Below are positions 11,994-33,440 of a stretch of 64,000 bases of DNA, piece after piece. The stretch spans positions 15,042,501 to 15,106,500 of the forward strand of contig NC_079886.1 of NCBI RefSeq assembly GCF_029227915.1, in the 5' to 3' direction. Source of the stretch: Hydractinia symbiolongicarpus (taxonomy: Eukaryota > Cnidaria > Hydrozoa > Anthoathecata > Hydractiniidae). The position numbers and the translations under genes were made by a program. The notes beneath the pieces are model-generated. The model was given only the letters and a program-made list of their open reading frames with translations, had not been told where the DNA came from and ran no database searches. Positions within the stretch are counted from its first letter, which is position 1; every line of letters begins with the position of its first letter.

Positions 11994-12360
11994 AAAAACC
12001 TTGCCTACCTGAATGCCTTGCCTACCCCTGCCTTGCTGATTCCTCTTCCTGTTTCCTTGCCTGCCTTTGCCGTGCCATTTCCTTGCCGTGCTTAATGCCT
12101 TTGCCTTGCCTGTGCTTCCCATGCCTTACCTACCCCTGCCTTGCTGATTCCTCTTATGTGTCCTTGCTAACCTTCCTATCTATGCCTTTTGTGGAGCCTG
12201 CCTACCTTTCCTATGCCTTTTCTGGTGCATGCCTAACTATGCCCTTGCCTCTGCCTCCCATGCCTTGCCTACCCCTGCCTTGCTGATTCCTCTTCCTGTT
12301 TCCTTGTCTGCCTTTGCCCTTTCCTTGCCGTGCTCAATGCCTTTGCCTTGGCAACCTCTT
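11994..12360. repeat. CCTTGCC-type minisatellite (second tract)
   Basis: Tandem, irregular pyrimidine-rich units (tgccttgcctacccctgcct, tgctgattcctcttcctgtt) as at 4641 and 19075. It is followed by gcaacactttctatattg and an R1 head. Confidence 0.75.
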
Positions 12361-12451
12361 CGCAACACTTTCTATATTGTTAGAAACCAAGTAAAGCCAG
12401 TGAGTGTGTTGTAGCTCTATGAAGTACAGTGTAATGCAAAAAAATAAAGAA

Positions 12452-13150
12452 TTGCGGAGCAAAGCGGAGCCCATTTTCTCATTAAATAAGCCAAATACAA
12501 GGGACGGAGGAGAGTGTATAGGATTTCCGCACCTATACATCATTTTTTTGCGGAGCGGAGTGAAGGGGAGCGCCAGCGAGCCGAGCGCAGCGAAGCTATT
12601 TTCCTCGTTCCCATAAATATATTAGAGCGTATCGAATTTCCGCGTTTTCTCCTAGTACATCAAATTTCAAAACGTCCGACTTTTGACCCACTTACCCAAA
12701 TATTTTTTATGGTCATTTCTTCCGTGAAAATCTGGTTCGTCGAGACCATGCCGTTTCCAGTTGAGATCAGGTCGGCATACGGCTTTAGCCACGGTCACTC
12801 TTACTAATATCACGTGACATTGTCTCACATACATAGCGCTTGAAATGAAAATTGCGTTGATGGCCATATTGGCTTGTTGGACGTAATGGACGGAAGGGCA
12901 TTTTCAAGAAAACGAAGAAAGGGTATGTTAGCTAGTATATCACTATTTTTTACATGTAATGAGCCCTTTTCTAGCCTCACTCACACCTAAAGCTAGCTAG
13001 TATAAAACTGCCGACTTAGCTGGGATAATATTAAAACTTAGATAGCATATATAGCTAGCTATAGCTAGCTAACTACTTTAAGAATAGTTAGCTAGCTCGA
13101 GCTTACACCAGTGCGGCTCAAGTTACAGAAACGGAAATTATTTCAATAAA
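12452..13150. repeat. R1 copy with internal deletion and doubled head
   Basis: There are two R1 heads (12452 and 12548), then the tctc.cacatagcgct and gttt/ttcaagaaaacgaagaaa blocks and a shortened TAGC-rich region. It ends at the ..accagtgcggctcaagttacagaa segment that also ends other copies. Confidence 0.7.
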
Positions 13151-13299
13151 TATGTATCGGGGAAACTTTAAATGTAATAACAAATAGTAATAACAAATGT
13201 ATATACATTTGTTATTACTGAGGCGTTTTAAATTCTGACAAGCGGTTCTCATGCAATCATCAACGCCTACTGAAAATCTTCAGATATATATATATATAA

Positions 13300-13737
13300 T
13301 TCATTTTTTGGGTTCAATCAAAACAAATTTTAGAAAAATGAAAAAATTTCCTGTTCGGGAAATCTCATAATTTTTTAAACCAGAAAATAATTTCACAATA
13401 AAGAAATATTTTCCGTTTTTGTAACTTGACCCGAACACCATTCTTGTTCCGTTTAACCTTCTTAGCATTTTCGATACATCAGCTTCTAAAGAAAATATGT
13501 CCCTGGTGCAAGTAATATTGCGTCCGGAACACACTACGGTATATACTGCTGATGCGGAAACCCCAGGAAATGTTTCATCAAGGCGAAGATGAAACAGTTT
13601 GATCGATTACCATGGAGCACGTGGGAACTTTGTTTTTTATACGATTCGTTATACAATTCAACCGAAAGGGGCATCTAAAATTTTTCGCTTGCGAACCTAG
13701 GGGACTCAGTCCCACGCTCCGCAACACTTTCTATACT
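13300..13737. repeat. Dispersed repeat R3 (copy 1), preceding R1
   Basis: It is similar over most of its length to 29090-29473: caccattcttgttccgttt, atattgcgtccg.aacacact.cggta and cgcttgcgaacctaggggac, ending tccgcaacactttctata. In both places R1 follows directly, so R3 plus R1 behaves as one unit. Confidence 0.7.
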
Positions 13738-14910
13738 AGTTGCGGAGAGAAGCGGAGGGCGCGTCAGCGCCCGGAGAGAAGCGGAGCCCATTTCCTCATT
13801 AAATAAGCCAAATATAAAAGAAAAAAGAAGTACGGTGGAGAGTATATAGGATTTCTATACGATTTCCGCGCCTCGTCCCCCTATACATCAAAAATATCCA
13901 TAATTCGGCCGTTTTTGAGTCAGTTTCCCAGCGATTTAATATGGTCATTCTTAATTACATTTTTTAGTAAGCGAGACAATATGTTTTTAGCACGGCGATG
14001 GAGTTTTTGTTGTTTTTTAACCAAGCGTAAATAGTGCTGTTTCCAGTTGAGATTAAGTTTGCCTACAATTTTTAGCCACGTGATACACATATTAATTTCA
14101 CTAATATCACATGACTTTTTTCTCGGACACATAGCGCCTCAAACTCAAACTTTCGTTAATCTAAGCTATATCGCAACTGACGGAAGGGCTTGTTCAAGAA
14201 AACGAAGAAAGGGTATTTTTAGCTAGCTAGTATATCACTATTCCTTTACATGTAATGAACTTTTTCTTATTCTCACTCACACTTAAGGCTAGCTAGCATA
14301 AAACTACTGACTGAGCTGGCTGGCATAAAATAGAGCAATAGAACAAACATATAACATATACAGCTAGCATAAAACTGGCTACAGAGCTAGCATAATTTTA
14401 ACTACTTAGCTGGCATAAAATTAGCTAATTAGGCTAGCATAAAATTATCTACATAGCTAGCATAGAAAAATTCTTTTGGACAGATTTTCAATGAGATAGG
14501 CCACCTAGCTTATACTTATGACACAGTATATAAGTGATATAATTCTACTCTGATTAGGAATGTCCCATTACATAGCTTGTTCTAGCGACAATCCACAATC
14601 GTCCAATTTTAGACCAAAGTTCAAGGGCAAAAAATGTTTAGCGAAATCAGCAAAAGTACATACCTAAATATAATTCTACAGATACTTCCCTTCCCACTTA
14701 CGAGGTCAAGTTGAGAACTTTATAACATTGAATGTTATAGAGGGGGTGAGAGCCATATTTTTTGTGAATGATTGTAGCTATAATGTAGGAACATCACAAA
14801 AGAAGCGGTGTAGTAGACATTGCCACGTTATAGATCAGGAAATTAACTTTTTTAACCCTGCCGGTGAGCATACACCAGTGTGGATTAAGTGACAAATGGA
14901 AATTATTTCT
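13738..14910. repeat. R1 copy
   Basis: Head with an inserted ggcgcgtcagcgcccgg segment, then the standard R1 order through the TAGC-rich part and on to the cacaatcgt, catacaccagtgtgg end segment. No coding sequence. Confidence 0.75.
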
Positions 14911-15817
14911 ATATTGACATCTATATTTATTATTAAGCCATTTTAAATTCTGAGAAGTGGTTCTTGTGCAATCTTCAACATGTATTGAAAATCTTTAAAT
15001 ATCTATATATATATATCGCATTCATTTTTTGACAGAAATTATTTCTATATCAAATAACCTTTTTTTACATCGTCTCGGGACTTCTGTGCCGAAAAACAGT
15101 CGTTGGGAGCATTTATCAGCTCCCAAAACTACAGGTCCTGGAAGGCGTCAGGTGGTGTTCGCGTTTACACCCAGGAGGACGACCGGAGGGGAAGGATGAA
15201 CATGAAGAGGAGAGGAGGCAGCTATAGCGGAGGGAGGGGAGGAAAGTGGTTTTAGGGTTTTTTTTTGTTTTAAGTTTATTTTTTGTTAATTTGTTCCAAC
15301 TTATTTTAGTTTATCAAGTTATGTGTATATATATATGAGAAAATTTAGTCTTTTTGTTGACGATGCAGCACTATAATTCTGTTCATTAACAATTGCGTCA
15401 AGATAGCTTTAGAGGGAGAAGTATTAAAGACTTTATACTTTAGTATTGTTCTTATTTTGTGGTAAAGTTTAGATCGGCGTTGTTCTTTAGTTTTCGAAGG
15501 TGATTGTTTAGTTTTTATTCTATCATCGACCACTTTTTGCAATTATTTATAAACTACAGACTGCGTACTTATTACTTTACATTTTCAAATATAAGCCTTG
15601 TTCTTTAGTTAAAATGTGAACATTTTGTTTGTTAATAATATATATATATAACGTATTTACTTGAAAAAGCAACACCCCTTCCCCGAATTATCTTCCTTTT
15701 TGGCGTAAATATTTAAAAAATGCCTTAAATAAGCGCCTCTATTTTCTCAGGAGGTGTTAATTTCACACCAACTATTTAAAGCAGCGCTTTTTTAAAATAA
15801 AATTTGTTAACATAATA
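14911..15817. other. Non-coding AT-rich stretch
   Basis: No supportable gene. A GA-rich patch lies near 15170-15245. A 65-residue minus-strand frame at 15345-15542 has no recognisable features and I do not call it. Confidence 0.45.
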
Positions 15818-16092
15818 CACGCTTTTTTTATAAGAATAGTGTTTTTTTTGTTGAGGGTGAAGTATTCTTATGATTTAGCAAAATATGGGGGTGAAGTATT
15901 CTTAATGTAGTCTTATTTTTCAGAGTAAAGTTTTTGTCACATGTATGAACAAGAATAACTATTTCGCGACAGCTGAATATGTTTCTTTTTCTAAGCAAAC
16001 TCACCCTGGAAATATTCTTAAGATATTCTTACAATTTAGGCAATTTTCACCCTGATATTCTTATAGAAGTTATTTTTATAAAAAAAAGCGTG
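15818..16092. mobile_element. Small MITE-like element with inverted termini
   Basis: The left end cacgctttttttataagaa and the right end ..tatttttataaaaaaaagcgtg are inverted copies of about 20 bp with one or two mismatches. Inside are mirrored gtgaagtattctta / ttttcaccctgatattctta segments. It has no coding capacity and I see no clear target duplication. Confidence 0.55.
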
Positions 16093-16609
16093 CAGTTTAG
16101 CCATCTTTCTTTGACACATACAATTTTTGTTAGATTTATTACTTTTATTGTTTAGTTTAGAGAGAAGATAGAGCTATATTGTGGTGTCCTTGATTTTATT
16201 TAATAAGTGCCTTATTTTAGAATATAAAATTAGCACCCCCCTTTGAGAACTTAATATTAAATAAGAGCCGCAGGTACTCAAGTACGGTACAGTTGAATTT
16301 TAAAAATTTTGTTTATAAAAGAATATAAACCATAAAATGTTGATATTTCTTTTTGAGAAGTTCCTTCTTTGTTTCACGTTTATAGGTGTCATTCATTTAT
16401 ATCAAAATCATAGTCCAAGCGGCAAAAATAATTTTTATGGTTAAAAAAGGAAAATTTAAGAAACTCCAATTATTTGAGCCTGAATCTGTTCTCATTTTGT
16501 TTTTATTTTTTGGAAAAATTTGAGTGCTTGTATGAAATTGTTCTTATAAAAATGCGTATATTTTTTTCGATATGCCGTTTTTACTTCCTAAAACAGTGAA
16601 TAATTTTAT
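16093..16609. other. AT-rich non-coding stretch
   Basis: I see nothing recognisable on either strand before the tRNA-like unit. Confidence 0.45.
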
Positions 16610-16677
16610 GCCCCGTTGGTCTAATGGCTACGACACTCATGCAAATGAGAGATCCGGGTTCGAATCCTGGACGGGGC
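16610..16677 (+). ncRNA. tRNA-like RNA with GNRA-closed arm (copy 2)
   Basis: Same 68-nt architecture as the unit at 4186. The acceptor stem is GCCCCGT/ACGGGGC: relative to the other copies (GCCCTGT/ACAGGGC) both strands changed together, which preserves pairing. Box B here is the canonical GGTTCGAATCC. The T-stem has one changed base on the 5' side only (CCGGG/CCTGG), leaving a G-T pair. The CTCAT-GCAA-ATGAG arm is identical. The typical tail is present for only about 65 bp, so this copy sits in a different context from the others and could be nearest to a source gene. Confidence 0.65.
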
Positions 16678-16984
16678 TAGGAAACACAATTATGCATCTA
16701 ACAACGGCCAGGTAATCCGTCGGTATACCTTATGGAGGGAAAAAACGAGTAAATTCGAGGTTTGGTGGGTTTCCCCCGACCAACATTTCCCCCCTGTTTT
16801 TTTCCCTGATAAGATACAAAGTCAGGGAGCCAGGGGTCAAAATTGGACAATCAAGGGCGGCAATTGACTTTGCTTTTATTCAAATACCCCAAATTTAACA
16901 AAATTAAATGTTGCCCATCGAACTTTTACTTGTAGATTAATTTGTATTTAATTTGAAATTCCCGGACTATAGTGTACAGTTTTA

Positions 16985-17880
16985 GGCACGTGATCCATGG
17001 GTCATTTGTACTAATATCAAGCGCCTTAAACTCAAACTTTCGTTTATCTAAGCTATATCGCAGCTGACAGAGGAAGGGCTTGTTCAAGAAAACGAAGAAA
17101 GGGTATGTTTAGCTCGTTAGTATATCACTATTTTTTGCATGTAGCTATTGAACCCATTCTTATTCTCACTCACACCTAAAGCTAGCTAGCTTAAAACTGC
17201 CGATTTAGATAGAATAATAATAAAACTTAGTTAGCATTTAGCTAGCTAGCTACACTGTTAGAGTTAGCTAGCATAAAAACAAACAAACAATGCAATATAG
17301 CTAGCATCAAACTAGCTACAAGGCTAGCATAAAATTAACTACTTAGCTGGGATAAAACAACCCATGTAGCTAGCAATAAGTTGCTATTTTTTGCTGGTAT
17401 AAAATCAGCAACATACCTAGCATAATAGAAAAATTTTTTTGGACAGATTTTCTACTTATCCTCTAGCTAGCTATTATACATATATACTACACAGTGAGTG
17501 AGATAATTCTACTCTGTAGGAATGTCCCATCATACAGCTTGTTCTAGCTACAATCGTCACAAAATGTGTTGTCTCTGGCAATTTTATACCAAACCCTAGG
17601 AACAAAAAAGTTTAGCAAAGTCAGCAAAAGAACATAGCCAGTTAGATACTTTGCAGATAGTACGTTCTGTTCGCACTCGTGATCAATGTTTATATACAGG
17701 TATGTCACGTGTAATTGTTTTCGTTGCTTAGCCACAAAAGGACAGTTCTTAACATTAAGGGGGAATAGAGTAGCTAGCTATATAGTGTACACACATCAGG
17801 AAATAAACTTTTTTAACCCTGCCGCTGAGCATACACCAGTGCGGCTGAAGTTACAGAAGCGAAAATTATTTCAAGTGTAT
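16985..17880. repeat. R1 copy lacking its head
   Basis: It starts within the gtacagttttaggcacgtgat segment and includes the ..ctaagctatatcgca, gttcaagaaaacgaagaaa and TAGC-rich blocks. It runs to the accagtgcggctgaagttacagaa end segment. Confidence 0.7.
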
Positions 17881-18184
17881 TCATTATTTCTTACCTAATT
17901 TCACTATATGTGTACAAATAATGTCCCAATAATTTATGTTTTTGTAACTTGACCTGATCCTTACACATGTGGCTCTAATGACGTTTTTGTTCAGTCTGGA
18001 ATAAGAGGTTTTCATCCTACTGTCATGAAAACTTGTTTGCAAAATAAACATATACTGCTGTTTGATTTTTAGCTGGACAGGGTAACAACGGGCTGTTTCC
18101 GTTGTTTTTTGAAACCGAAGTTGCATGGCACAATATGTAAATTGTGTTTATATTCAAGCTAAAGTTGAAGGAAATATATTTTGT

Positions 18185-18444
18185 GAATCTGAAAAATATA
18201 ATTACACCCGAAACTCCTTAAATGTCATGTGTTTCACTCGATTTACGATAAGGCGCTCCACCTGAATGTGTAGTACAGTTTACAATTTGCATTAACTGTT
18301 CCACCAAGCGTTTTTCGCCAGGTAACACAGTTACTTGTGACTTAACCAGCATTTTTCAAAATATTAATTAACTAGGCTGTGTGCTGTAAATTCCTAAGCG
18401 TATATAATATTCACCTGTAAAGTTTTAAAAAAATATATATTTAT
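18185..18444. repeat. Dispersed repeat R2 upstream of a tRNA-like unit (copy 2)
   Basis: Similar to 11735-11960, including ttacacccgaaactccttaaatg, gtttcactcgatttac and the linker tatataatattcacctgtaaagtttt just before the tRNA-like unit. Confidence 0.65.
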
Positions 18445-18512
18445 GCCCTGCTAGTCTAATGGCTTTGACACTCATGCAAATGAGAGATCCAGGTTCAAAT
18501 CCTGGACAGGGC
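18445..18512 (+). ncRNA. tRNA-like RNA with GNRA-closed arm (copy 3)
   Basis: 68 nt, differing from the 4186 copy at only a few positions in the D-region (gccctgctagtc..ggctttgaca). Acceptor, T-arm and the CTCAT-GCAA-ATGAG arm are preserved except for one acceptor pair (T7 to C). It is followed by the same long tail as copy 1. Confidence 0.65.
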
Positions 18513-19075
18513 TAGGTAAAAAACATAATTATCTTGCACCTACAACAACCAGGTTTTCATATAATAGGTAGTCTTTCAGTCGTAGAGGGGGGAGTTGCAT
18601 ACATTTATCAATTTCATTTATAGAACCTAAAAGTGCTTTGTTTTTTGTAATAGATCTATCACTTTATGGTAAAAAGTTTTGTGTTGATATACCTGGTAGG
18701 CACAAGAAACCAAAAAAGGCGTTTCTTAATAATTTTTTTTGCATTTCTCGTGGACTTCTCTGATTATTTCTATATCTTGACTTTTTAATGTTGTTGTCAT
18801 TGGAACCAAGTTAATCTCAGATTTATCAAAAAATGATATGTCGTTATGACCGATTGTTTAAATACTTGTAATGGCACATAATTCTGCTAACATGATTCAC
18901 TGTATATTGACCTGAGATAAATTTGAGACTTTTTTTTGAGATATTGAATTTGAAATATTTGCACCTCAATATTTTCTCTACTCCTGGACTAATATGATAC
19001 TTAACTTAGATATATTGAGTATACACAATCTTTGACTTGTAAGGTGGAGATTTTCATTAAAGTCATACACCGTTC
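18513..19075. repeat. Tail block linked to the tRNA-like unit (copy 2)
   Basis: It matches 4254-4640 in order and sequence, with an extra segment near 18560-18740 absent from the first copy. It continues into the CCTTGCC tract. Confidence 0.7.
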
Positions 19076-19275
19076 CATTGCCTTGCCAGCACTGACCGTG
19101 CCTTTCTTTGCCTACCCTTCCTATGCCTTTTCTGGTGCCTGCCTACTATGTCCTTGCCTGTGCCTCCCATGCCTTGCCTACCCCTGCCGTCTTGATTCCT
19201 CTTCCTGTTTCCTTGCTTGCCTTTGCCCTTTCCTTAGCGTGCTTAATGCCTTTCCCTTGGCAACCTCTCCGCAAC
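19075..19275. repeat. CCTTGCC-type minisatellite (third tract)
   Basis: The same irregular pyrimidine-rich array as at 4641 and 11994, ending in ggcaacctctccgcaacact. Confidence 0.75.
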
Positions 19276-19289
19276 ACTTTCTATATTGA

Positions 19290-19537
19290 TTGCAGTCAAA
19301 GCGGAGCCCATTTCCTCATTAAAAAAGGCAAATAAAGGCTGTATAGGATTTCCGCGTCTCGCCCCTATACATCAAAATATCAAGCACTCTTCCCCACAGT
19401 TTCGATTTCGTCCATTTTGGTTTTGTTTCCCAGCAATTTAATCTGGTCGTTTTTCCGTAAATCTCTGATTAAGCGAGACAACATAAATTTAAAACAACAA
19501 TGGGGGAGTTTTTGTTGTTATTTAAACATGGCGACAA
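19290..19537. repeat. R1 head fragment, cut by a MITE
   Basis: R1 head without its first bases (caaagcggagcccatttcct), continuing to ggagtttttgttgtta, where the 9-bp target duplication of the next element begins. Confidence 0.65.
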
Positions 19538-19546
19538 TGTGAGAAG

Positions 19547-20145
19547 GGAAGATGCTTTATCCAAAATGCGATTCCGTGGTTTTAAAATTAAATTATTTTT
19601 AGAATTATGTCATTCAAATATGACATATGTTGCGTAATACCAAAATGCATTGGGTGCGCATTTAGCAGGAGTTTGCGGAAAAAGCCTGGAGGCACATGTA
19701 CGTGTTTTGAGATTTTGTATACCGTTGAAGTTTTCAACTAAAATAAACCTTTCGAACTGTAATCATCGTTCAGTAATGGAAATAAATAAAACGAATATTG
19801 AAAATCTAGTTGGTAAGTTGTCAAAGTTTTTTTTATTATTCTTGGATATTTTAAAGAAAAAATAAAAGCTAGAAATAAATCAAAATCGAAAATTTTTTTC
19901 CACCGGATACTTTCACGAAGGAAATGGTTTTGTAAGAAATGTAGATAAATTTCTTCCAAAAAAACACATCTTCATTTAACATTTCTTTCCTGTTTTACCC
20001 AAATATCTACTTCCGCAATATAATCTAAGTAAATCGGGGATCTGGGTAATAAGTGCGACTAAAGGAAGCCATATTTAATGCCGAAGTATTTCAAATAAGA
20101 GTTAATTTTAAACCACGGAATGGCATTTTGGATAAAGCATCTTCC
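19547..20145. mobile_element. Mutator-like MITE with 9-bp target duplication
   Basis: The terminal inverted repeats are about 45 bp, starting GGAAGATGCTTTATCCAAAA on each strand with only one or two differences (19547-19591 and 20102-20145). The flanks carry an exact 9-bp direct repeat TGTGAGAAG at 19538-19546 and 20146-20154. Long TIRs with a 9-bp duplication are typical of MULE elements. The 599-bp interior has no transposase, so it is non-autonomous. Confidence 0.75.
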
Positions 20146-20248
20146 TGTGAGAAGGACCACGAGAATTTTACTGGAGAAAGACCACGAGAATTTTACTTTT
20201 TTTATCTATCGATCTCAAGTAGTAATATCCTTATTTAATTCTCATTAG

Positions 20249-20270
20249 TATGGTGGCCCATGGCTGCCAT
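20249..20270 (+). repeat. Left terminal inverted repeat
   Basis: 22 bp, exact reverse complement of 28711-28732, preceded by the CATTAG target duplication. It contains the first of five GGCCCATSGCTGCCA motifs. Confidence 0.9.
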
Positions 20271-20436
20271 GCAAAAAAAATAAACAAATATCAAAACAAT
20301 TTCATTTCAATTTCAAATCGAACTCATCTTAATTTCAAATCAAAATTGAAATCAAATCAAAATAAATTTACTTCGTTTAAATTCGATTTAAAAGTAAAAG
20401 TTACATTAATTTCAATCGAATTTGTTTTTAACATTG

Positions 20437-20451
20437 GCCCATCGCTGCCAC
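20437..20451. promoter_or_regulatory. Left subterminal motif, likely transposase-binding site
   Basis: GGCCCATCGCTGCCA matches the core of the terminus (with C for G at one position). Inverted copies lie at 28581-28595 and 28481-28495. Repeated subterminal copies of the terminal core usually bind transposase; that role is inferred here. The site is also about 60 bp upstream of the transposase start, so it could influence its promoter. Confidence 0.55.
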
Positions 20452-20509
20452 GCGAAAATGAAATCAAATTATATTTCGTTTCGGTACACGTTATATTTGA
20501 TAAACAAAG

Positions 20510-22127
20510 ATGGCGGCTTCTCCAGCGTGGGAAAATGATATCAATCTTGAAGAAGCATTGAAGAAACTTGTCAGGCAAAATTTACCTCGGCGTGATATAT
20601 TGAACTACATTATAATTAATAAATATACATTAATTAATATACATTATAATTGGAGCATAAGAACAATTGATAGAAGATTGCGCCACTTCAACATATACTA
20701 TTCGGATACAACGGTAACTGTTGAAAAGGTGCAAGAAGTTGTCAAAGATGAGTTAGAAGGGCCTGGAAGACTTTTAGGATATCGAGCCATGCAACAAAAG
20801 GTTCGACAAAAACACCTCTTGAATGTACCAAGAGCACTGGTGTATGACGTGATGTATGATCTTTCACCAGAGGACCTTGCAAATAGGCGACCAGGTCATA
20901 AAGAAAAAAAGGAGAAGAGTAATTTTGTTACAAAAGGCATAAATTGGGTATGGTCATTAGATGGTCATGATAAACTGATGGGGTATCAGAATTGGACATT
21001 CCCATTGGCAGTGTATGGGTGCAGTGATACAGCTAGCCGTAAACTTCTTTGGTTGCGTGTATGGGATTCAAATTCCAAACCAGAATTGATCGGTAAATGG
21101 TATTTAGAGCACTTATGTAAAACAAACATCATCCCTGCATATATTCGCATCGACAAGGGAACAGAAACTGGCGTTATGGCCACAATGCAATCACACTTGA
21201 GAAGAAATTGCGAAGACCTTGACGATCCCACTGAATCAGTGTGCTATGGACCATCAACTTCAAATCAAGTAAGTGTCATTTCTGATAGTCCAATATTGCC
21301 TAATTTCTTTTTCAAATACCTAATCGGCATTCTTGTTTTTAGATTGAACGTTGGTGGAAAGAGCTCCACGAGAGACTTGAGAAATATTTCAAGGATGGAT
21401 TACAATGGCTGACAGAAGAAAGACATTATGACCCACATAATGAAGCAGATAGGTAATGTAGAATAAAATGTATTCAGAAGAAAATATAACAGCATCATAA
21501 AAATTCTTCTAAAAATAGTAAACAAATAAAAAACAATCACTATACTCTTTCAGGAATATTATGAAGTACGTTATGATACCACTTATCCAGAGAGAATTGG
21601 ACGAATTTCGAGAAATCGTGTGGAACACTCATCGCATAAGGAAACAAAAAAATACCATTTTGCCTGATGGTATACCAAACCACATATACGATTTTCCACA
21701 AGAATATGACTTATTGGAATGTGGTATGCTTTTATTTTTTGATGATTGATTTTTTAAATACCTTAAAAGTACATATTCCGGCTTTTCTATAACGTATAAA
21801 TAGGGTATATAATATTTTACCCTATATATTGTGTTTTATCTATGTCAATAAATATTATATTATATATAAATTATATACACACGAAAATTAGTATGCCTAA
21901 GGTAATCAAAATGTAACAAAAATCTTTATATACATCCAGGTTTTCCTGTGAACGACAAAGAGCTGGAAGATGTAGCAGACTTATCAAATGTACTGAGTGA
22001 AACAACTGAAGATTACATTGATGAAGCATTCAGAAATAAATGTCAAAACATACTGCCAGATCCTGCAAAAATCTCCGCAACCAAATATGTAGAGTCTTAT
22101 TTACTGTTGAAAAGTAACATTACATAA
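20510..22127 (+). CDS. rve-type (IS3EU-like) transposase, four exons, intact
   Basis: Exons 20510-21268, 21343-21452, 21554-21723 and 21940-22127 join into 409 codons (408 residues plus TAA) with no break. All introns are GT-AG (gtaagt..ag, gtaatg..ag, gtatgc..ag). The N-terminal part is helical and HTH-like (residues 1-65: ALKKLVRQNLPRRDIL, SIRTIDRRLRHF). The integrase-fold core has D151 (WSLDGHD), D215 (RIDKGTE) and E255 (QIERWWKELHERL), a D-63-D-39-E spacing that reads as a complete DDE triad; E255 is in exon 2. The ATG is in good context (aaagATGG), 261 bp from the left terminus. It should cut and join the element's own ends. It ends 5 bp from the stop of the opposing kinase gene. Because the frame is intact, this copy could be recently active. 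Confidence 0.85.
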
Positions 22128-22637
22128 CTTTATCAATGTTGTGAAGAAATTTTTGCTATGTGACAAAAATTGTTACATGCGTGCTGAGCGAAAAAGTTTT
22201 CCTTTGCAAGCGTAGATAAGTTCCCCATGCAAAACAAAAGTTCGTCGTTTTCATCATAGCTACTTTTCATAGTAGCAATTTCAGGATCATATAATGTTAA
22301 CCCCGAACCTTGTATGTCCACCAGCATAAGTGTTTCCTTGGATTTCACATAAGAAAAATGAGTTAAACACTCTGCCATTTCTTGGTTAAACAAAATATTT
22401 CCAGGCGATATACTTCCATCATTATTTATATATTTACTGAACTCCCCATCTACGTATCCTTCTATTGTCACAATTTCTGATTCGACACCAAGTCTTCCGA
22501 ATGATGCTGTATTGTATAACATCTTGGGCCCAATATAACCACCTTCAAAGAGTGCTTCACTGAGTTGCAAGGCAAAATTTGCAGCTAAAGCATGCATTTG
22601 GACAGCTTTTCGTGCATGACATTCAGGACTTTCCTTT

Positions 22638-22741
22638 ATAGATAGGAATGAAACCATTTGCTTATTTATTAGTATGCAATGTTGAATCTGAAAACAAACA
22701 ATAAACAATAAATACAACAGTTCAATGTTCATTACTCTCTA
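22638..22741 (-). repeat. 3' LTR of the nested Gypsy element
   Basis: Identical to the 5' LTR over 104 positions. It is preceded on the minus strand by the polypurine tract and followed by the kinase coding sequence after AAAG. Confidence 0.85.
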
Positions 22742-22792
22742 TCTCCCCCCAGTCATTAGGAGATGTGCAGTATATAATGACGATTAAATGTA

Positions 22793-25700
22793 TTAGTTCA
22801 TAACATAGTCCTCGAAACGACATGGTTGCCGACGTTCTCTTGTAGATCGACGAACCGGGGACGGATAAGGCGGTGACGAGGAGGCGGTCGGTACATCCAA
22901 ACGGTTGTCAGCAGCTGGCTGGTCAGGACCAAAGTATGTGTCACTATCATGCGATGCTTGTGGAGGCGGAGTGTTGTCGGTCGGATTTGAGAGGGGTGGT
23001 GTAGATCCCTGTGGCAAGTCTTGAGTGGAGCGGCTGTCATCGATGGGTTGTTCCACAGCTTTAGAGGTGATTGGCGGCCTAGAGGCTGGTGGGATTGATC
23101 GCCAGGCGTTCATAAGCTGGTCCAATGGTAAGTTTGGCCGAACAGGTGTGAATTTCCGAAGGAATTTACGGTTACGTAGTGTCACCCGTCTTGATCCATC
23201 AATTCGAACCACATATTGGTCATGCGGGCGAACTTCGATAATCGAGCCGGTTTTGTCCCATCGAAGAGGATGGAGACCAGTCTGATTTTGGATTCGCACC
23301 TGATCTCCCACACAAAGTGGGTTCAACTGCTTAGAATACAGAGACAGTCTCTCAGCGATGGCCATATGACGACGCCTTAGTGCCTTTTCGCGATCTTCAA
23401 GGACACTCACCCACGTAGGGTGGGGGAGGTATTTACCTGGCAAGATGGGTACGAAATCCTTGATGGGTCGTCCAAACAAACATATTGCAGGTGATAACTT
23501 GGTGGTTTGATTTGGCGTGTTTCTATATTGTAGCATGGCTTTTTGAAATGCGTCTGTGTCAAGGTTCCCATCAGAACAAACATTATCCGTTAGCATGCGT
23601 TTTACTGTTTTCACACCAACTTCAGCTCGACAATTGCTGTGTGGATACGCAACTGATGATATTCGGTGGTGGACACCCCAGTTACGCAGGAAAGTGGACG
23701 TGGAGGATGCACACAGCTCAGGTCCACCGTCTGAGGAGAATTCGTCCGGTATACCATAGGTTACAAATGTTCGGCGGAGGCAGTCGATTAATCCTTTCGC
23801 ACCATTTCTAGCCTCCTCAACAATCGGCCAATTGGAGTATCGATCAATGCAGACAAGATAGTTGTGGCCGGCATAATGAAAGAAGTCGCCACAGATTTGC
23901 TGAAACGGATAATCAGGATATTGCAGAGGCTTCGGCGGAGCTGATGGTTGCGATGGAGCAATACGGTCGCAGCTTTGACATCCCTGACGTAACTTTACGA
24001 TATCTGCAGATAGACCTGGCCAGAAGATGGAAGATTCGGCCCTCAAGTTCATCGATGTGACACCATGGTGTGCGGCATGAAGGCTGGATAGTATGTTAGG
24101 CCGTAGGCATGGAGGTATGATGACCCTGTCCTTGTAAAGTGCGACTCCATCAACAGTGGACAATTGATCGCGATATTGATGATATACCTGCAATTTCTGG
24201 GGCCACTCCGTCTGGTGTTCAGGTAAGCCAGACTCAATGGTATGAACTAGATCTCGCATTTCGACGTTGGCTGTAGTTGCTTGACGAACATCCTCCCAGG
24301 TTGTGGATTTAAGGGAATTCAATGCCGATGAAGCAGCTATAAACGAAATGTCGTCAGGTAATACCAGTTGTTCCGGAGACGGGTCGCCAGATGGATGGCG
24401 CGACAGAGCATCTGGAACTCGATTCTTCAGACCAGGAATATGTTGCATGGTGAAACGATACCTCAGTGTGCGTTCTTTAAGATTCCGCAATCGGTTGTTA
24501 GGTATGTCTTCCAGGGATCTGTTTGTAAAGAGTCCGAGCAACGGCTTATGATCGACTGCAATGATTAGGTCCTTGCAACCCAAAACAAAATGTCGACACT
24601 TGTCCAACGCATGTGCAACGGCTAATGCCTCACCTTCAATTGGTGCATAACGGGACTCAGCTGGGTGAGTGAACCGACTGCCAACTAACACAACCTTCCA
24701 ACCACTACGACAACAGAAGAGAGATTTCCCTTCACATAGGCAATGTTTTTGGAGCAGCCAAAAACCAACTCCGTTCTTTGACCAGTCTGTTGCTATACAT
24801 GTGAGCCTTGACTTGTCAAATATGCGTACACCTTCCTCAATCTCACTTAAGATTTTTGATTTAGAGGCAGCAAATATTTCGTCGAGTTCATCGCTCCATT
24901 GAAACGAAGACTGAGGTTTCAGCAATTCGCGTAGGGGTAGCATTTTGTCCGTCATACTGAATGTGTATGCTACTTGGTTGACCAGACCGAACCAGGAACG
25001 GATGTCTGTTATATTTTGCGGTACAGGAAAATCGGCAATGGCCCGCATAAGGCTTGGTGCTGGACGGACATTGGTAGGGGTAACTTCAAACCCAGCAAAC
25101 TCCACCACATCATGGGCAAATTTGAACTTTGAGGGATTTTGAATAATTCCGTTTTTCCCGCAAGTGTCCAACCATTTGCAAGTGTGGAAGAAACATTTCT
25201 CGATATCGGTAGCCCATAAAAGAGAGTCATCGGTTACCTTGATTTTGTCGGGAAAGTCTGATACAATGGCGTCAAACCTTCGAGAATAACCATCTCCAGA
25301 TGTAATGTAGCCCTGAGGTAGGGTACAATACCTGTAGCGACCCCACGGTGTGATGTAAGTTGTATAGTGGCGATCTTCCTTGCAAAGAGGAACGCTATGG
25401 TACCCATTCCAAGCATCTGATACGGTCTTCTTGGTGTGGTGAGGTACCGTGCGAACCTGATGGAATGGTGATTGTGTGTGGTGAGTTTCTCTGGTAGCGT
25501 GTTTATTAAGAGCCTGAAAGTCAACACAGCGTCTCGGTTTGCCACTCTTTTTTGGACACACTACCATTCTGTGGCACCATGTCACGGGTTCACCAATGGG
25601 CACTGGTTCAATAACTCCAAGAGCTACATCGCGGTCTAGGTCGGCTTTTACTTGTTCTTGCCAGTGGATCGGTACAGGTATTGGCGAATGATGTGTAGTC

Positions 25701-27442
25701 GGCTCAGCATTCTCATCGATCATCAGCTTCATGGGTGGCCCGGACATCAATGGCAGAGGTTGATGTTCGCATACATTGAAGGTGCTGCTTTTATAATAGT
25801 TAAGAAGCCATTGCTCCAATCTTTCCCGGTTCTCCTCTGTTGGTGGATATGGCAGTTCGGTAGGAAGTGGTGGCGGTGCTGATCGTTTTGGACATGAACA
25901 CTCATTAGTTGGATCAGGTACAGTGATGGTATTCGCACCAATCATAGGGAATTGAGGTGATACAATGCCAAGATCTACACAGGCACTCTTACTGAGGTAA
26001 AACTTGTCAGAGTCGTTAGTCACATACGTAAACTGCTTCGTTTCTTGTAGTGACCCGTGGCAATTGATACCAGCGATGCGGATGACGATAGCCCCTAATA
26101 TTTTGATAGATTGTCCATTGGCGGCGTCCATTTTCATTCGGACCGGGATGAGATCACTTTTAGAAAGGTTGAATCGCTGAATCCATTTGTAACCAATGAG
26201 ACAACTTTGGCAGCCGGTGTCTGCCATTGCCGGTATGGTGATAGTTGACTCGTTAGTACCATGTGGAAATTTAAAACCCAGCTCGCTGTAGTCATCTTCC
26301 ACGATACGCACGGACAAATCGAGAAACGGTTGTGGAGGAGATGGACTTTTCTTCCAAACATCTTTAGATTTGTTGTGGCAGTGGTGATCAACATGGTCCG
26401 CAGATGCTGTGTTCAATGAGCATAGTGAGTTGAATATCGTGCTGGATTCCTCGACAACTGCAGCATTATCAGGCTTTCTCTCCTTGTTTTTTCGATCTTT
26501 GCTCCTACACACGTGATCAAAATGATGCAGACGTTGGCAATTCCCACACTTGTGATTATATGCAGGACATGTGGATTGACGGGATCGTGATGCGCTAGTG
26601 CTGTGGCAGTTTGTTCCGCAGTACCCACATTTTGAACCAGAATCGCGTTTGGTATCACGGTTGGTGTCATTGTCTTCTTTTGGCTTATTGAAGGAGTCTC
26701 GTTTACCCCTTCTGTACTGGCTATGGATGGCACCAGCCTGGTGGTGATCGATGAGGCGTGTTGCAGAACGTTTCCCTGCTTCCTTTGTTTCAACGAATTT
26801 GAGCACTTCTTCCAAACACATGTCCTGGTTCGTATGTCCAAGAAGCTCCAGCTGAATATCAGGGTCGGAGATACCACGACCAAGAACATCACATAATATT
26901 TGTTCGGTATAGTCCACGTCGTGGCTGCACGAGGGGCAGGGAATAACATATTTACATACACCAGCTTGACCTTTCAATCTAGCCCCAAACGATCTTATTG
27001 GCTCATCAGGATCTTGATTGATATTGTTTAAGGCAACTCGTGCAACCATAACGTTTTCCTCCCTGACAGCGAGTGATTTCATTGAAGCAAGGATGACATC
27101 CTCACTTTTTTCGGCCAACATGCCAGTGGTGGATCGGGTGAGGTCTCTGCGCAACTGCTCGTCACAGCATTCAAGGAGTTGGAGAACAGCATCTCTACCT
27201 GTGATTTTGGTAGCGGTCTTGTACTCAATCCAGCGGGTCAGGAAGTATTTCCAATCCTCAGAGGTTCCGGCTAAAGTAACAGTGGGACGTCTCACTCGTT
27301 CAATCTTGGCCGTGGGTGATACCGATGTAGGTTGATTCGAATGCGTGGTAGCATGGGTTGTCAGTAGTGCAGCAATGATGACAGCATCGAGGTCTGGCGT
27401 GGTGTAGGTGCAGCCAGGCACTGGACAACTAACTGATGGCAT
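22793..27442 (-). CDS. Gag-Pol polyprotein of the nested Gypsy element
   Basis: A single open frame of 1549 residues from ATG 27442 (MPSVSCPVPGC); an upstream in-frame GTG at 27457 is not needed. In order: an N-terminal C2H2-like motif (CPVPGC...HATTH, residues 6-34), Gag helices, zinc-knuckle-like clusters (about 272-312: CGYCGTNCH, HKCGNC), protease DTGCQS (about 408), RT (about 600-800) with VTDDSLLW at the catalytic box, RNase H (IATDWSKNGVGFWLL), then integrase with an H2C2 zinc module (AAHHGVTS..CQSCDR) and a DDE core (D in CGDFFHY, D in SSDGGPEL, E in NCRAEVGVK). No chromodomain is visible at the C-terminus. With no frame change between Gag and Pol, all parts are made as one chain, as in Tf1. 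All expected catalytic residues are present, so it may be competent. Confidence 0.9.
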   Translation of the reverse strand: MPSVSCPVPGCTYTTPDLDAVIIAALLTTHATTHSNQPTSVSPTAKIERVRRPTVTLAGTSEDWKYFLTRWIEYKTATKITGRDAVLQLLECCDEQLRRDLTRSTTGMLAEKSEDVILASMKSLAVREENVMVARVALNNINQDPDEPIRSFGARLKGQAGVCKYVIPCPSCSHDVDYTEQILCDVLGRGISDPDIQLELLGHTNQDMCLEEVLKFVETKEAGKRSATRLIDHHQAGAIHSQYRRGKRDSFNKPKEDNDTNRDTKRDSGSKCGYCGTNCHSTSASRSRQSTCPAYNHKCGNCQRLHHFDHVCRSKDRKNKERKPDNAAVVEESSTIFNSLCSLNTASADHVDHHCHNKSKDVWKKSPSPPQPFLDLSVRIVEDDYSELGFKFPHGTNESTITIPAMADTGCQSCLIGYKWIQRFNLSKSDLIPVRMKMDAANGQSIKILGAIVIRIAGINCHGSLQETKQFTYVTNDSDKFYLSKSACVDLGIVSPQFPMIGANTITVPDPTNECSCPKRSAPPPLPTELPYPPTEENRERLEQWLLNYYKSSTFNVCEHQPLPLMSGPPMKLMIDENAEPTTHHSPIPVPIHWQEQVKADLDRDVALGVIEPVPIGEPVTWCHRMVVCPKKSGKPRRCVDFQALNKHATRETHHTQSPFHQVRTVPHHTKKTVSDAWNGYHSVPLCKEDRHYTTYITPWGRYRYCTLPQGYITSGDGYSRRFDAIVSDFPDKIKVTDDSLLWATDIEKCFFHTCKWLDTCGKNGIIQNPSKFKFAHDVVEFAGFEVTPTNVRPAPSLMRAIADFPVPQNITDIRSWFGLVNQVAYTFSMTDKMLPLRELLKPQSSFQWSDELDEIFAASKSKILSEIEEGVRIFDKSRLTCIATDWSKNGVGFWLLQKHCLCEGKSLFCCRSGWKVVLVGSRFTHPAESRYAPIEGEALAVAHALDKCRHFVLGCKDLIIAVDHKPLLGLFTNRSLEDIPNNRLRNLKERTLRYRFTMQHIPGLKNRVPDALSRHPSGDPSPEQLVLPDDISFIAASSALNSLKSTTWEDVRQATTANVEMRDLVHTIESGLPEHQTEWPQKLQVYHQYRDQLSTVDGVALYKDRVIIPPCLRPNILSSLHAAHHGVTSMNLRAESSIFWPGLSADIVKLRQGCQSCDRIAPSQPSAPPKPLQYPDYPFQQICGDFFHYAGHNYLVCIDRYSNWPIVEEARNGAKGLIDCLRRTFVTYGIPDEFSSDGGPELCASSTSTFLRNWGVHHRISSVAYPHSNCRAEVGVKTVKRMLTDNVCSDGNLDTDAFQKAMLQYRNTPNQTTKLSPAICLFGRPIKDFVPILPGKYLPHPTWVSVLEDREKALRRRHMAIAERLSLYSKQLNPLCVGDQVRIQNQTGLHPLRWDKTGSIIEVRPHDQYVVRIDGSRRVTLRNRKFLRKFTPVRPNLPLDQLMNAWRSIPPASRPPITSKAVEQPIDDSRSTQDLPQGSTPPLSNPTDNTPPPQASHDSDTYFGPDQPAADNRLDVPTASSSPPYPSPVRRSTRERRQPCRFEDYVMN

Positions 27443-27469
27443 GTCGAGGCGTTTCACTTGAAGATTAAA

Positions 27470-27480
27470 AGATTCAACAT
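27470..27480 (-). promoter_or_regulatory. Primer-binding site complementary to the element's own R region
   Basis: The 11 nt ATGTTGAATCT (minus strand) directly at the LTR edge are the exact reverse complement of AGATTCAACAT in the LTR (27530-27520). This matches the arrangement of self-primed Tf1-type retrotransposons, where the RNA 5' end folds back on the PBS. Self-priming is an inference from the complementarity and the well-placed TATA-like box. Confidence 0.65.
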
Positions 27481-27582
27481 AGATAGGAATGAAACCATTT
27501 GCTTATTTATTAGTATGCAATGTTGAATCTGAAAACAAACAATAAACAATAAATACAACAGTTCAATGTTCATTACTCTCTA
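27479..27582 (-). repeat. 5' LTR of the nested Gypsy element
   Basis: 104 bp identical to 22638-22741. Read on the minus strand it has a TATTTAT box (27555-27549) located 25 bp before AGATTCAACAT (27530-27520), which I take as the start of R. It ends CCTATCTAT. Unusually short for a Gypsy LTR. Confidence 0.85.
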
Positions 27583-28480
27583 CTTTATTTGTTTCAAATC
27601 GTCAAGGCTGCTTTCTAAATATCGTTTGATGACAAACTTTTTTTCACTTTTCGATCCACTCATTTTCCCAAAATATGCTGCTCTAAACCCACCAGTAGCA
27701 AATGGATTTTCTTCAACAGTTATGTAATGCTTTTCTGGCAGAGTCCATGACATCGTTTTTATAGAAAAATCACACATTTCCACTTGTTCACTACTGCCAT
27801 TATATTTGGTTATCACTTTTCCCAGTTTCATCATCGTAGAAACTTTTAAACTTTTGGCTACAGAAATCGACTTTGCTGGAAGTTTACGTGATTTCAAGAC
27901 TTGAGGCAAAGATCGTGATACTACTGATGAACTTGCTGTTAAAGAATTGATACTTGGTTTGTACGTTCCCGTTCCAGTTGTTGCACTTGAGGTGGTCTGT
28001 GATTCAATGTGGTCTTTGATGAATCTGATGTTAATGACTTTGAGATTTGGAAGATGACTCATTTTAGTGCATGATGGACCTCTGTCACTTGCTAATATGT
28101 CGCAAGTCATACCAGCTGGTAATCTGTCTTTAAAATGTTTGTTACAGGCTTGTTTGATGTTTGGTATGGTTACTTCTTCAAATGCGAACTCCACAAATTC
28201 TTGTGGGCCAGTTCGTTCGTATTTTTTTGCCTTACCACTAGTGTCACTTTCTAGGGGCTGTACAGTTAATTCGTTAGTTGTTAATATGTGACTTCCAGCT
28301 GATTCAGAGGATGACGTTCTCTTAATTTTACAATCTTTATTAAACTTCTGCCATTGCTGGTGTTTTTCTTTTCGTTTTCTGTCAGCCATATTGTAAAGTT
28401 TAGCGTGGTTTGTTATTAGTCATTTCTCAAAACATCAAAACATCGGCATTATAAGTCATGTCTCAAAATATCAAAACATT

Positions 28481-28595
28481 GGCAGCGATGGGCCAAGCAA
28501 CGAAATGAATTCAATTTAATTTGAAAAGCAAAGTCGATTTCAAAAGCAAAATCGATTTAAAATTAAATTGATAACGCGTGTGGCAGCGATGGGCC
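28481..28595. promoter_or_regulatory. Right subterminal motif pair
   Basis: TGGCAGCGATGGGCC occurs at 28481-28495 and 28581-28595, both inverted relative to the left motif. They lie between the right terminus and the kinase start (28389), so they sit in the likely kinase promoter region as well as in the transposon end. Confidence 0.55.
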
Positions 28596-28710
28596 AATAT
28601 CAAAATTGAATTCATTTTGATTTTGTTTACAAAGCGATTCGATTTATTTTGATTATCATTTGAAGGTGAATTGAGTGTCAATATGAAAATAAAGTAATAA
28701 CAAAAACGCG

Positions 28711-28732
28711 ATGGCAGCCATGGGCCACCATA
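28711..28732 (-). repeat. Right terminal inverted repeat
   Basis: Exact 22-bp inverse of the left terminus, followed by CATTAG (28733-28738). Confidence 0.9.
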
Positions 28733-28738
28733 CATTAG

Positions 28739-30818: not shown

Positions 30819-32081
30819 CTAATATTCCACAGAGTAGAAGCGCCCATCCAAAATATTCAGCTGCGCATCTTGGAGCAAGTACACGTAGCACTTGATATCT
30901 CCAGTTCCATCCGCCTTCTTGGTCGTATGCAAGGTGATTCCATCGCTAAGCCTTTACAAGGGTCTGCCAGAACCATTGATCTTGACTACTGCGGAAATCA
31001 ATGAACAGCGCATAGCGCTCAGTCATGAACTGCCCAATGATCACATCCGAGTCGTGGCTAGCAAAGAGTTCAACGACTTGCTGGAGATGATCTTTCGGGA
31101 GCATGGCGTGACTATACACTTCATTCGGCTCACCTTCTACCGTGATTGCGAATTTCTCGATCTTGGGGTTATAGAACTGTTCGTTGGCACCGTCGTAAGC
31201 CTTGACTTTCCCCGGATCTACAAAGAGTAGCAAGACACCCTTCAGAGACTTGGCAGGAGTATCGATCTGGAGGTTGTAGGAGGTATCGGCTTTTTTCATG
31301 GTCACCACTTTGCCCTCAAAATCCGTTCGTACGGCAGGGCCAGCCTCGAGTATCGTGACATCATAGCACTGCTAAGCCCCTCGTTTGTCACTTTATCAAA
31401 CTCGAGCGCGATATTGGTAATTTTATAACCAGCATCAGCTGGCTTGGCTACCGTGCTTCCAGAAGCCGCCGTACCAGCATCTTTGATGACTTGGTCGTGA
31501 GGTGCAAAATTTATTACGAACTGCAGCCTGTCGTGTAAGCCTGCTTGATAGAATGGCAGATCCCTCGTGAGTTCGAACATTTTACCTATAGGGATGCAAA
31601 ATGTGTTGCCGTAAGCTGCCACGATCGCTTTTTCTTCATCATTTTCTACATGGTCGCTAGCTTTTATCTATAGAGCTCTGATGGTACCATCATTGGGATT
31701 GATACCTTATAAAATTATAATGTTCTCTTGGTCAAACTTTGGGATCCACAGATCCCGATACACTGTCAGGGTGTTGTAGTCCGAGATGTTTTGCACTTCG
31801 TGACCGTTCAGGGTTATGCGAAGGTTTTGAACCAGGGCCTTGCCGATGTTGCTGACGATGGTGCGTTTCGTATTGGTGCCAGTAAGCTCCAAGTCAAAGA
31901 GGAGTTTAGGAGAGCCCGGGAAAATTACATCATCTTCACCCAAATTGGGTACGTCCACGTACAAGTCTTCGTTGTGGTTGATCGTGCTAGGGTTGGGGGA
32001 GATTTTAACACGCTGTTTTTTGCCTTTCATGGCCCGCATTATCTTTAAATCCTTGATAGGATTTAGCTTAATTCCGTACAT
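30819..32081 (-). pseudogene. Polinton-type major capsid protein (F54H12.2-like), broken
   Basis: The length from ATG 32081 to TAG 30819 is close to 420 codons, the usual size of this double-jelly-roll capsid family. Recognisable blocks are LVQNLRITLNGHEVQ and YRDLWIPK in the first third, AYGNTFCIP and LPFYQAGLHDRL in the middle, SLKGVLLLFVD and IGQFMTERYALFIDFR later, and YVYLLQDAQLNILDGR at the end. Breaks: in-frame TAA (31707-31709), an in-frame TAG shortly after, a 1-bp shift near 31308 and a shift near 30965. It lies 29 bp from the start of the divergent plus-strand gene, so they probably shared a promoter. It cannot make a capsid subunit as it stands. Confidence 0.8.
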
Positions 32082-32110
32082 TTAATAGTAGGCAATTGCG
32101 GGTTGAATAA

Positions 32111-33440
32111 ATGCCGATTAATCCAATATATGAAGGAGATGACTTTACGCCAGAAGAAGGCATTCCAGACGAGTCTGAGGAGTTTAGTAGCGAGATCCTT
32201 TTGGCCCGAGGGCAACCAGCTCGATACCAGCATAGTACCAGAAGAGCAGGGAGGTGCGCGTAGGCGATTGGAGTTGAGTACGGAGTCGAACGATACACTA
32301 CTTTTTAAATCAAAGGTTGATAGCCTGTACACGAATCTTAGGGATGGGCTTGGGCTTATGCCCGATGCGACACACTATGATAGGTTCAGATTAAGAGAGG
32401 ATGGCCAGCTTGTAGTAAAGAGGGTTGTGACGGGAAAAAGATCACTACCGGAAGTAGTACTCACGTTGCAAGATGGTAATTTTCCAACTATTGGACAGCT
32501 GCTGAAGTTGTTGGGTAGTACACGCATGAAAGCGATAGGGTTTGATGACTATCATACACCAAACAAGGGTAGTAGGGCAGAGGCCCAGAAACTTATGAAT
32601 GAATTGAAACATATTGAGGAAAGGGCTGATGACATTGAAATGTTGCCGCTAGTCGAGAACGTGCTTGATGATACGGACAGTCTGATCGAAGATAACTCGT
32701 TTGGCAGGGATATCACAGAGCGTGAAAGAAGAGGGTTAAACCGCAAGCTTCAAATGCTAAGGGGTAACCTCAAGCACTTGAAAGGCAAGATGATCTTCTA
32801 CGATAGTCAGATAGACATAGCAGAAGCCATATTAAAAGGTCTCGAGAGCAAGAAGGTCACACCTGGAGCATCCGAGCAACAGCTAGCTATCTGAGAAAGG
32901 GTAATAACCAAGGCTAAGAAAGAGCTAGAACAACTCCAAGGTCAAAAAGAGGCTACGGCAAAAGCGCACGGTTTACTATCATCCGACACTCGGAGCCCGC
33001 TGCTACACATCAAAGAGACATTGATGAAGATCGCAGGGGATGATAAAACTTTGGCTGAAAAACTCAGGATCCTGTTCAAAGAGCAGGGTATTACTATAGC
33101 CAGTATCGTCTCCGCTGTTGGTCTCCTGATTTCAACCATCGTGCTTGCCGTTACGGGAGGTGGAAGTGCTGCTGGGGGAGGTAGTGCTGGAGGAAGTACA
33201 GGTGGGAAAGGTTTTGTACGGAAACAGCTTGAAAGACTCGGGAGATTTTTGAAGTACCTAGCAGGCAAAGCAGGGGCAGCTCTTCCTAGCATCATTGGCA
33301 GCGTGGTGTCGTTCTTTTTCAGAGTTGCGGCTAAGATTGTGGAATTTGCAGCCAAGCACTTGTACATGGCTTTGGTTGCTGCTGTGGGTGTTGTTGTTGC
33401 GTATGTAAGTAACAGGAGGAGTAAGGGTGGAAAGAATTGA
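32111..33440 (+). pseudogene. Polinton-like membrane / minor-virion protein, broken
   Basis: ATG at 32111 opens an acidic N-terminus (MPINPIYEGDDFTPEEG). A frameshift between about 32200 and 32260 leads to the long frame with LYTNLRDGLGLMPDATHYDR. Then comes a charged, helical region (residues about 150-270, LMNELKHIEERADD and KLQMLRGNLKHLKGK), an in-frame TGA at 32892-32894, and a hydrophobic end: IASIVSAVGLLISTIVLAV, a Gly/Ser linker, an amphipathic Arg/Lys helix, and a second hydrophobic stretch (LYMALVAAVGVVVAYV) before a basic tail. I know this architecture from cnidarian Polinton-like elements; the function is unknown and a membrane-active minor capsid role is only a guess. Confidence 0.65.

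Follow-up and report, generated by a model that had tools for sequence, protein, structure and literature searches.

The DNA examined here is a window of 64,000 nucleotides from Hydractinia symbiolongicarpus (G000:C12:15042501-15106500 of a 481-Mb assembly in 76 contigs; other loci of this genome are given below in the same form), and its main subject is a DNA transposon at positions 20249-28732 of the window, in which a transposase gene and an alpha-kinase gene face each other. The element is very probably an IS3EU transposon, and in its clade an alpha-kinase lying tail to tail with the transposase is a standing second component. The features of the locus are as follows, where TSD, TIR and LTR denote target-site duplication, terminal inverted repeat and long terminal repeat, respectively.

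20243-20248: left TSD, CATTAG, read from the sequence
20249-28732: IS3EU-type DNA transposon with transposase and alpha-kinase genes
20249-20270, plus strand: left TIR, 22 bp, TATGGTGGCCCATGGCTGCCAT
20254-20269, minus strand: terminal copy of a 16-bp motif at the left end, possible transposase-binding site
20435-20450, minus strand: subterminal copy of the 16-bp motif, left
20510-21268, plus strand: transposase exon 1, with the start codon, D151 and D215
21343-21452, plus strand: transposase exon 2, with E255; breaks near the same residues are seen in several other copies
21554-21723, plus strand: transposase exon 3
21940-22127, plus strand: transposase exon 4, with the stop codon at 22125-22127
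22133-22633, minus strand: alpha-kinase 3' piece, 166 aa and stop, with E327, H361, VDIQG and H-x-C-x3-C
22634-22638: TSD of the retrotransposon, CTTTA
22639-27582, minus strand: Gypsy-type LTR retrotransposon within the kinase gene, 4,944 bp including its LTRs
22639-22741, minus strand: 3' LTR, 103 bp
22793-27502, minus strand: gag-pol frame, stop to stop, with reverse transcriptase (RT), RNase H, H2C2 and integrase domains
27480-27582, minus strand: 5' LTR, identical to the 3' LTR
27583-27587: second copy of the TSD CTTTA, which belongs to the kinase gene
27583-28389, minus strand: alpha-kinase 5' piece, 269 aa, with the N-terminal domain, the glycine loop and Lys255
28003-28284, minus strand: kinase N-terminal domain (residues about 36-129), with a weakly predicted, possible ubiquitin-like fold
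28480-28495, plus strand: subterminal copy of the 16-bp motif, right
28581-28596, plus strand: subterminal copy of the 16-bp motif, right
28711-28732, minus strand: right TIR, 22 bp, including a motif copy at 28712-28727
28733-28738: right TSD, CATTAG, read from the sequence

A preliminary description of this DNA had placed the element at 20249-28732, with perfect 22-bp TIRs and CATTAG on both sides, and these limits were confirmed. The two TIRs are identical over 22/22 bp (TATGGTGG..CCACCATA), and the same rule for TIRs and TSDs gave no other pair in positions 1-20000 or 30001-64000 of the window; the 22-bp TIR had 0 matches in viral contigs. In the 64-kb window, the 16-bp motif, TGGCAGC[C/G]ATGGGCCA, has five copies, all within the element ends (two on the left and three on the right), where the count expected by chance is 0.01 with at most two mismatches for a motif that was picked after the ends had been inspected. 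We take these copies to be likely transposase-binding sites. The class of the element is indicated by its TA..TA termini (TATGG..CCATA), by the 6-bp TSD (CATTAG here, CACGAG and GAGGTG in copies on C7 and C14, and five of six bases in elements on C10 and C11), and by a DDE integrase-like transposase, recognized from its match to PF24764 and its catalytic triad. The exon 1 scan also agrees with the absence of an HHCC motif upstream of the core in IS3EU; exon 1, the part scanned, gave no match to a zinc-finger family in Pfam at E values up to 1.

The transposase gene lies on the plus strand and is open across four exons, giving a protein of 408 aa with GT..AG borders predicted from the sequence. 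The tblastn matches to several other copies likewise break near residues 254, 290 and 347. The triad consists of D151, D215 and E255, and exon 1 matches PF24764 with an E value of 1.9e-6 and 28.2 bits (cut-off 26); the transposase with a D-D-E triad that had been described earlier is confirmed. The protein-database search gave 515 matches, the best at E 3.4e-169; 120 were listed, 105 of them at least 330 aa long, and the three triad residues are kept in 104, 104 and 103 of these 105, among the matches listed. One protein of the same species, P0041, shares 96% identity with the window transposase over 58% of its length. The scan with the transposase alignment A2 gave 86 matches in genome contigs and 59 in viral contigs, with no relative among them.

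The kinase gene is intronless and lies on the minus strand, starting at 28389 and running tail to tail with the transposase, such that the two stop codons (22125-22127 and 22133-22135) are 5 bp apart. Its C-terminal piece matches PF02816 (Alpha_kinase) with E 3.6e-24 in Pfam, and the N-terminal piece has no Pfam match. Across the two pieces, K255, E327, H361, D375, Q377, H420, C422 and C426 are all present, which we take to be the catalytic and zinc-binding residues, and the Lys, VDIQG and last H/C motif align with TRPM7. For the N-terminal domain, no Pfam family was obtained at E values up to 1. The model of this domain has a mean predicted local distance difference test score (pLDDT) of 84.7, and its structural matches to the ubiquitin-like (beta-grasp) fold are weak; on this model, a ubiquitin-like fold is possible.

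The full alpha-kinase coding sequence of the preliminary description was not confirmed: its Lys, VDIQG and H/C residues are present, but the gene is split by the 4,944-bp retrotransposon. Identical LTRs, a short TSD and the order RT, RNase H and integrase identify the insert as a Gypsy-type LTR retrotransposon, which entered after kinase residue 269, between Lys255 and Glu327. The LTR ends read TAGA..TCTA. The 103-bp repeat was found at full length at 17 places in the genome, including the two in the window, with 93-100% identity (10 places at 100%), and four LTR pairs, the window's pair among them, stand about 4.8 kb apart. These copies and spaced pairs across the genome indicate that the repeat is the LTR of a recently moved retrotransposon family. 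Alignments with the relatives P0001, P0002, P0003 and P0005, which have unbroken frames, continue directly over the insertion point, and in a copy of the transposon at C7:32414761-32417654 this very site is unoccupied, the reading frame passing from one kinase piece directly into the other. Reading a 104-bp direct repeat as a kinase intron and exon start was also considered and was ruled out by the 5-bp TSD, the insert-free sister copy and the LTRs elsewhere. The kinase gene has thus been split by a younger retrotransposon, and therefore the window copy gives no single continuous kinase; the transposase gene beside it still reads open.

Four copies of the same family, at 97% identity or more, were found in the genome, and two of them hold both genes. 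The C7:32414761-32417654 copy is 99-100% identical in DNA to the window element and contains both genes between two copies of the TSD CACGAG, with 643 bases of the transposase side missing. A further family copy at 84-88% identity lies at C7:22199421-22210096, with an inverted counterpart near C7:32.57 Mb; in the first of the two, the stretches of about 3.2 and 4.7 kb that separate the matching parts are probably further insertions. Three divergent elements match both genes. The ends of the first, at C10:13862424-13865894, were found with a TSD of 5/6 bases, where a tandem repeat allows a second solution; the second, at C11:17419888-17423393, has TIRs of 24/24 and a TSD of 5/6; and the third, at C14:11452893-11454458, has a TSD of 6/6 (GAGGTG) and has its middle deleted. 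When the matching loci were merged into 29 stretches, eight of the underlying loci having been chosen because of the kinase, 27 matched the transposase and 21 of these 27 also matched the kinase. Both ends were recovered in 4 of the 29; most of the 29 stretches are 3-5 kb long and too short for both.

The pairing of the two genes was also assessed genome-wide. PF02816 was found at 42 places (39 loci), and transposase exon 1 gave at least 150 scored places (130 loci) from 443 candidates. Of the 42 kinase places, 20 have a transposase place within 5 kb, where random placement gives a mean of 0.14 and a maximum of 3, and in 19 of these 20, the window's included, the two genes are tail to tail with gaps of 46-1325 bp. 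At transposase loci whose best row is at least 40% identical, PF02816 is present within 5 kb in 19/42; below 40%, it is present in 0/88. This difference indicates that the presence of the kinase follows the kinship of the transposase.

Pairing is also seen beyond this genome. Database matches of kinase and transposase share equally sized contigs of 17739, 5357 and 374143 bases, in a comparison of 104 kinase matches with 113 contigs from the 120 transposase matches listed. The mean expected by chance is 0.019 for contigs of at least 5 kb, which is the count used, and 0.62 over all sizes, where 466 of 20000 draws reach 3. The 374143-base pair is LOC110237033 (kinase) and LOC110237035 (transposase) of Exaiptasia, whose linkage is taken from the equal contig size and the neighbouring gene numbers. 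Ciona records include both proteins, on differently sized contigs. Some proteins of the transposon-kinase family (P0012, P0032, P0035, P0192 and P0196) stand under names such as TRPM6-like and eEF2 kinase, and the names TRPM6-like, myosin heavy chain kinase D-like and eEF2 kinase occur in the Paramuricea, Ciona and Exaiptasia records of this family. Annotators should be aware that transposon kinases are filed under host-kinase names.

The recurrent pairing in the genome and the Exaiptasia pair indicate that in this IS3EU clade the kinase is a standing component and no chance capture. A single event in which one transposon copy took up a host alpha-kinase would fit the four closest copies, of which two have both genes; it is nevertheless very improbable, because it is contradicted by the C7, C10 and C11 elements and faces many divergent two-gene loci, an anthozoan pair and published fungal elements. 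Moreover, the kinase is intronless and an intact relative reaches only E 4.9e-11 against the nearest solved kinase, such that no recent host donor is seen. Copies lacking the kinase throughout, or kinases confined to fixed host loci, which would have marked a single capture, were not what the genome contains. The preliminary suggestion of a standing transposon gene is therefore borne out by the C7 copy with its different 6-bp TSD, the 19 tail-to-tail places and the Exaiptasia pair, and "cargo", the term first used for the kinase, is the wrong word for a standing component.

Whether the two genes descended together was judged from their distance matrices. A Mantel comparison of kinase and transposase distances gave r = 0.57 over 19 rows, with 0/9999 permutations reaching this value, after three near-duplicates and poorly covered rows had been dropped. 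However, r was 0.28 across the 147 divergent pairs of these rows (a value without permutation) and 0.36 over 12 divergent rows, where 622/9999 permutations were at or above it. Congruence of the two trees, a comparison proposed earlier, is thus partly supported; as far as these sequences go, recent co-descent is supported and deep congruence is weak. The kinases at C1:4502307-4505885 and C10:12688324-12691959 are 0.15 apart and their transposases 0.41 apart, a mismatch that may stem from genes having been exchanged among elements or may be an artefact caused by decay. Repeated exchange or recapture of the kinase between IS3EU lineages, as described for TET/JBP in PMC12730594, would account for this mismatch, for the weak congruence among divergent rows and for a HECT-type gene found in the same position in a more distant lineage. 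We regard it as a possible, less favoured course, because the correlation over the 19 rows, the tail-to-tail order in 19/20 linked places and the tracking of the transposase clade by the kinase (19/42 against 0/88) all speak against it.

Constraint on the kinase was examined in 104 protein-database matches, 54 of which are at least 365 aa long. Among these 54, the Lys is kept in 54, the Asp and Gln of VDIQG in 53 and 52, the Glu in 51 and the first His in 51; the H, C and C of the last motif are kept in 50, 49 and 48, most misses being gaps, and at the position of the second loop glycine 33 have Gly and 19 have Ala. The ratio of nonsynonymous to synonymous substitution (omega) was taken from the 40 pairs with the lowest divergence among the 153 of this genome, and the result for the kinase is ambiguous: omega is 0.27-0.51 between families, where the synonymous divergence (dS) is saturated, and 0.38-1.20 in younger pairs. 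Two pairs of decayed copies gave 0.90 and 1.01 at dS of 0.28 and 0.20, respectively, and the window kinase against the 84-88% copy, which has 10 stops, gave 0.46; the transposase showed a similar pattern. The relaxed ratios in younger copies, and a window transposase that stays open beside a broken kinase, would fit a kinase that, standing as it is, served the host or was a neutral passenger persisting by hitchhiking and not by aiding transposition. This appears unlikely, since almost all of the 54 long matches retain the catalytic and zinc residues, order and orientation are fixed in 19/20 linked places, and a neutral gene should have been lost over the distances seen, identity between the kinases of paired elements falling to 33-38%.

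The saturated, younger-pair and decayed-copy ratios and the low correlations among divergent rows weigh against a standing kinase, and so do the following observations. The kinase of the C7:32414761-32417654 copy has one premature stop, and the two other places at 97% or more are one-ended, with the transposase side alone at C1:28257977-28259465, where the 3.5 kb beyond has no match to the element, and the kinase side alone at C1:29399839-29400802. Three of the 19 tail-to-tail pairs are near-identical copies on C6. A transposase was not listed within 5 kb of 22/42 kinase places; 10 of these 22 (8 loci) were inspected, and among them L042, L043 and L045 match the catalytic half alone at 37-44%, in a comparison with transposon kinases only, L044 is eEF2K-like, and L005 is weak against transposon kinases and reaches E 8e-15 against solved alpha-kinases. 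In the remaining three inspected loci, L008, L040 and L041, the N-terminal domain seen in transposon kinases is present, together with a piece of transposase at L040. Similarly, 23/42 of the closer transposase loci (at least 40% identity) are without PF02816 within 5 kb, with kinase remnants at some of them (C14:11.45 Mb, C14:11.07 Mb, C4:15.78 Mb, and C7:22.2 Mb and its double).

With these points considered, a standing alpha-kinase in an IS3EU clade remains the reading that we strongly favour, and on this reading the alpha-kinase of IS3EU is a lasting part of these elements in animals too, not a fungal oddity. As to its role, control of transposition or host restraint has about an even chance of being correct. 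In the mechanism proposed, the transposase would act on the TIRs and the subterminal TGGCAGCSATGGGCCA repeats and move the element by cut and paste. The kinase would serve the element in trans; its most likely substrate would be either the transposase or some host factor restricting transposition or expression, and the N-terminal domain, possibly ubiquitin-like, may supply the kinase's partner. The Gypsy-type retrotransposon entered the kinase gene of the window copy later. The question whether a transposon uses a protein kinase to control its transposition thereby becomes testable.

The position opposite the transposase is occupied differently in a more distant lineage. Transposase loci below 40% identity make up 88 of the 130 scored, and three of these 88, L047, L048 and L049, showed no alpha-kinase by tblastn; L047 and L048 are 99.4% alike over 3.1 kb. 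When L050 was joined with L048, a complete IS3EU-like element of 5,076 bp was obtained at C12:13022620-13027695, with the TSD TCATTC on both sides and TIRs that are alike across the 24 bases compared (TACGATGGCCCTCAGGTGTCACTT). A 702-aa frame lies tail to tail with its transposase, and the C-terminal part of this frame aligns with the end portion of HECT (E 2.3e-6, above the Pfam cut-off). In L049, another element of this distant lineage, the left frame did not match HECT and had a DUF1722 match at 0.012, under the cut-off, and the kinase N-terminal domain showed no sequence similarity to the N-terminal 416 residues of the HECT-type protein. The L048 frame indicates that the slot opposite the transposase, filled by a kinase in one clade, is taken by a HECT-type gene in at least one element of a different clade. 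Tentatively, this slot may hold a regulatory enzyme of the host-signalling type, either an alpha-kinase, perhaps with a ubiquitin-like domain, or a HECT-type ubiquitin ligase, whose targets would be the transposase or silencing factors of the host; the kinase form would then be older than the split of cnidarians, tunicates and fungi or have spread between them.

Other features were seen elsewhere in the window. A second Gypsy-type retroelement lies at 6801-10050, with frames that overlap in different reading frames; by eye, a frame very like its RT part adjoins the element end in L048. Frames at 45681-47846 and 56109-59312 resemble Helitron remnants, with a sub-threshold DUF6570 match at 46962-47846 and a PIF1-like helicase match at 58590-59309. 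At 32067-33440 there are adjacent frames of 275 and 181 aa, the former with a sub-threshold Pfam match only.

The element can be compared with known systems. IS3EU elements at large have TA..TA termini and usually 6-bp TSDs (PMC10045372), and by published description the window element shares with IS3EU (IS3EU/GingerRoot) the TA..TA ends, the 6-bp TSD and the DDE integrase-like transposase. The preliminary description knew of no IS3EU-like element with an alpha-kinase; such elements had already been reported in December 2025 (PMC12730594), where an alpha-kinase is described opposite the transposase in the TET+ IS3EU of fungi, and as a kind they are thus known from fungi. In that source, IS3EU of rust fungi have 6-bp TSDs and TAYGG..CCRTA ends, which the window element matches, and TET+ IS3EU of rust fungi and Tuber have transposase and alpha-kinase in opposite orientations, as here; TET/JBP genes are described there as repeatedly exchanged or recaptured between IS3EU lineages. 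The difference is that TET+ IS3EU have a TET/JBP gene between the two genes, whereas in the window element, in a cnidarian host, the stop codons are 5 bp apart, no TET/JBP gene lies between transposase and kinase, and the other long frame belongs to the retrotransposon. Styx of Zymoseptoria and the Intons of fungi are large IS3EU-related elements with extra genes (PMC10853768, PMC3520738). Those of Styx are of GATA, CCHC and DUF3577 type, with no alpha-kinase named in the available part of PMC10853768, and the Intons, which evolved from IS3EU, have five to six proteins according to a meeting talk (PMC3520738). In the open-access PMC literature, no publication was found that deals with alpha-kinase elements of animals or with a HECT gene in IS3EU, and as far as that literature shows, the animal alpha-kinase elements, the possible ubiquitin-like domain and the HECT-type sister element are new. 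Among solved kinases, TRPM7/ChaK, eEF2K and MHCK A (PDB 1ia9, 7shq and 3lkm) share the alpha-kinase fold, as modelled for the relative P0001, and have like catalytic and zinc residues; however, identity to them in Foldseek is 17-22%, and the transposon kinase has an N-terminal domain of its own and is encoded by an intronless gene within a transposon.

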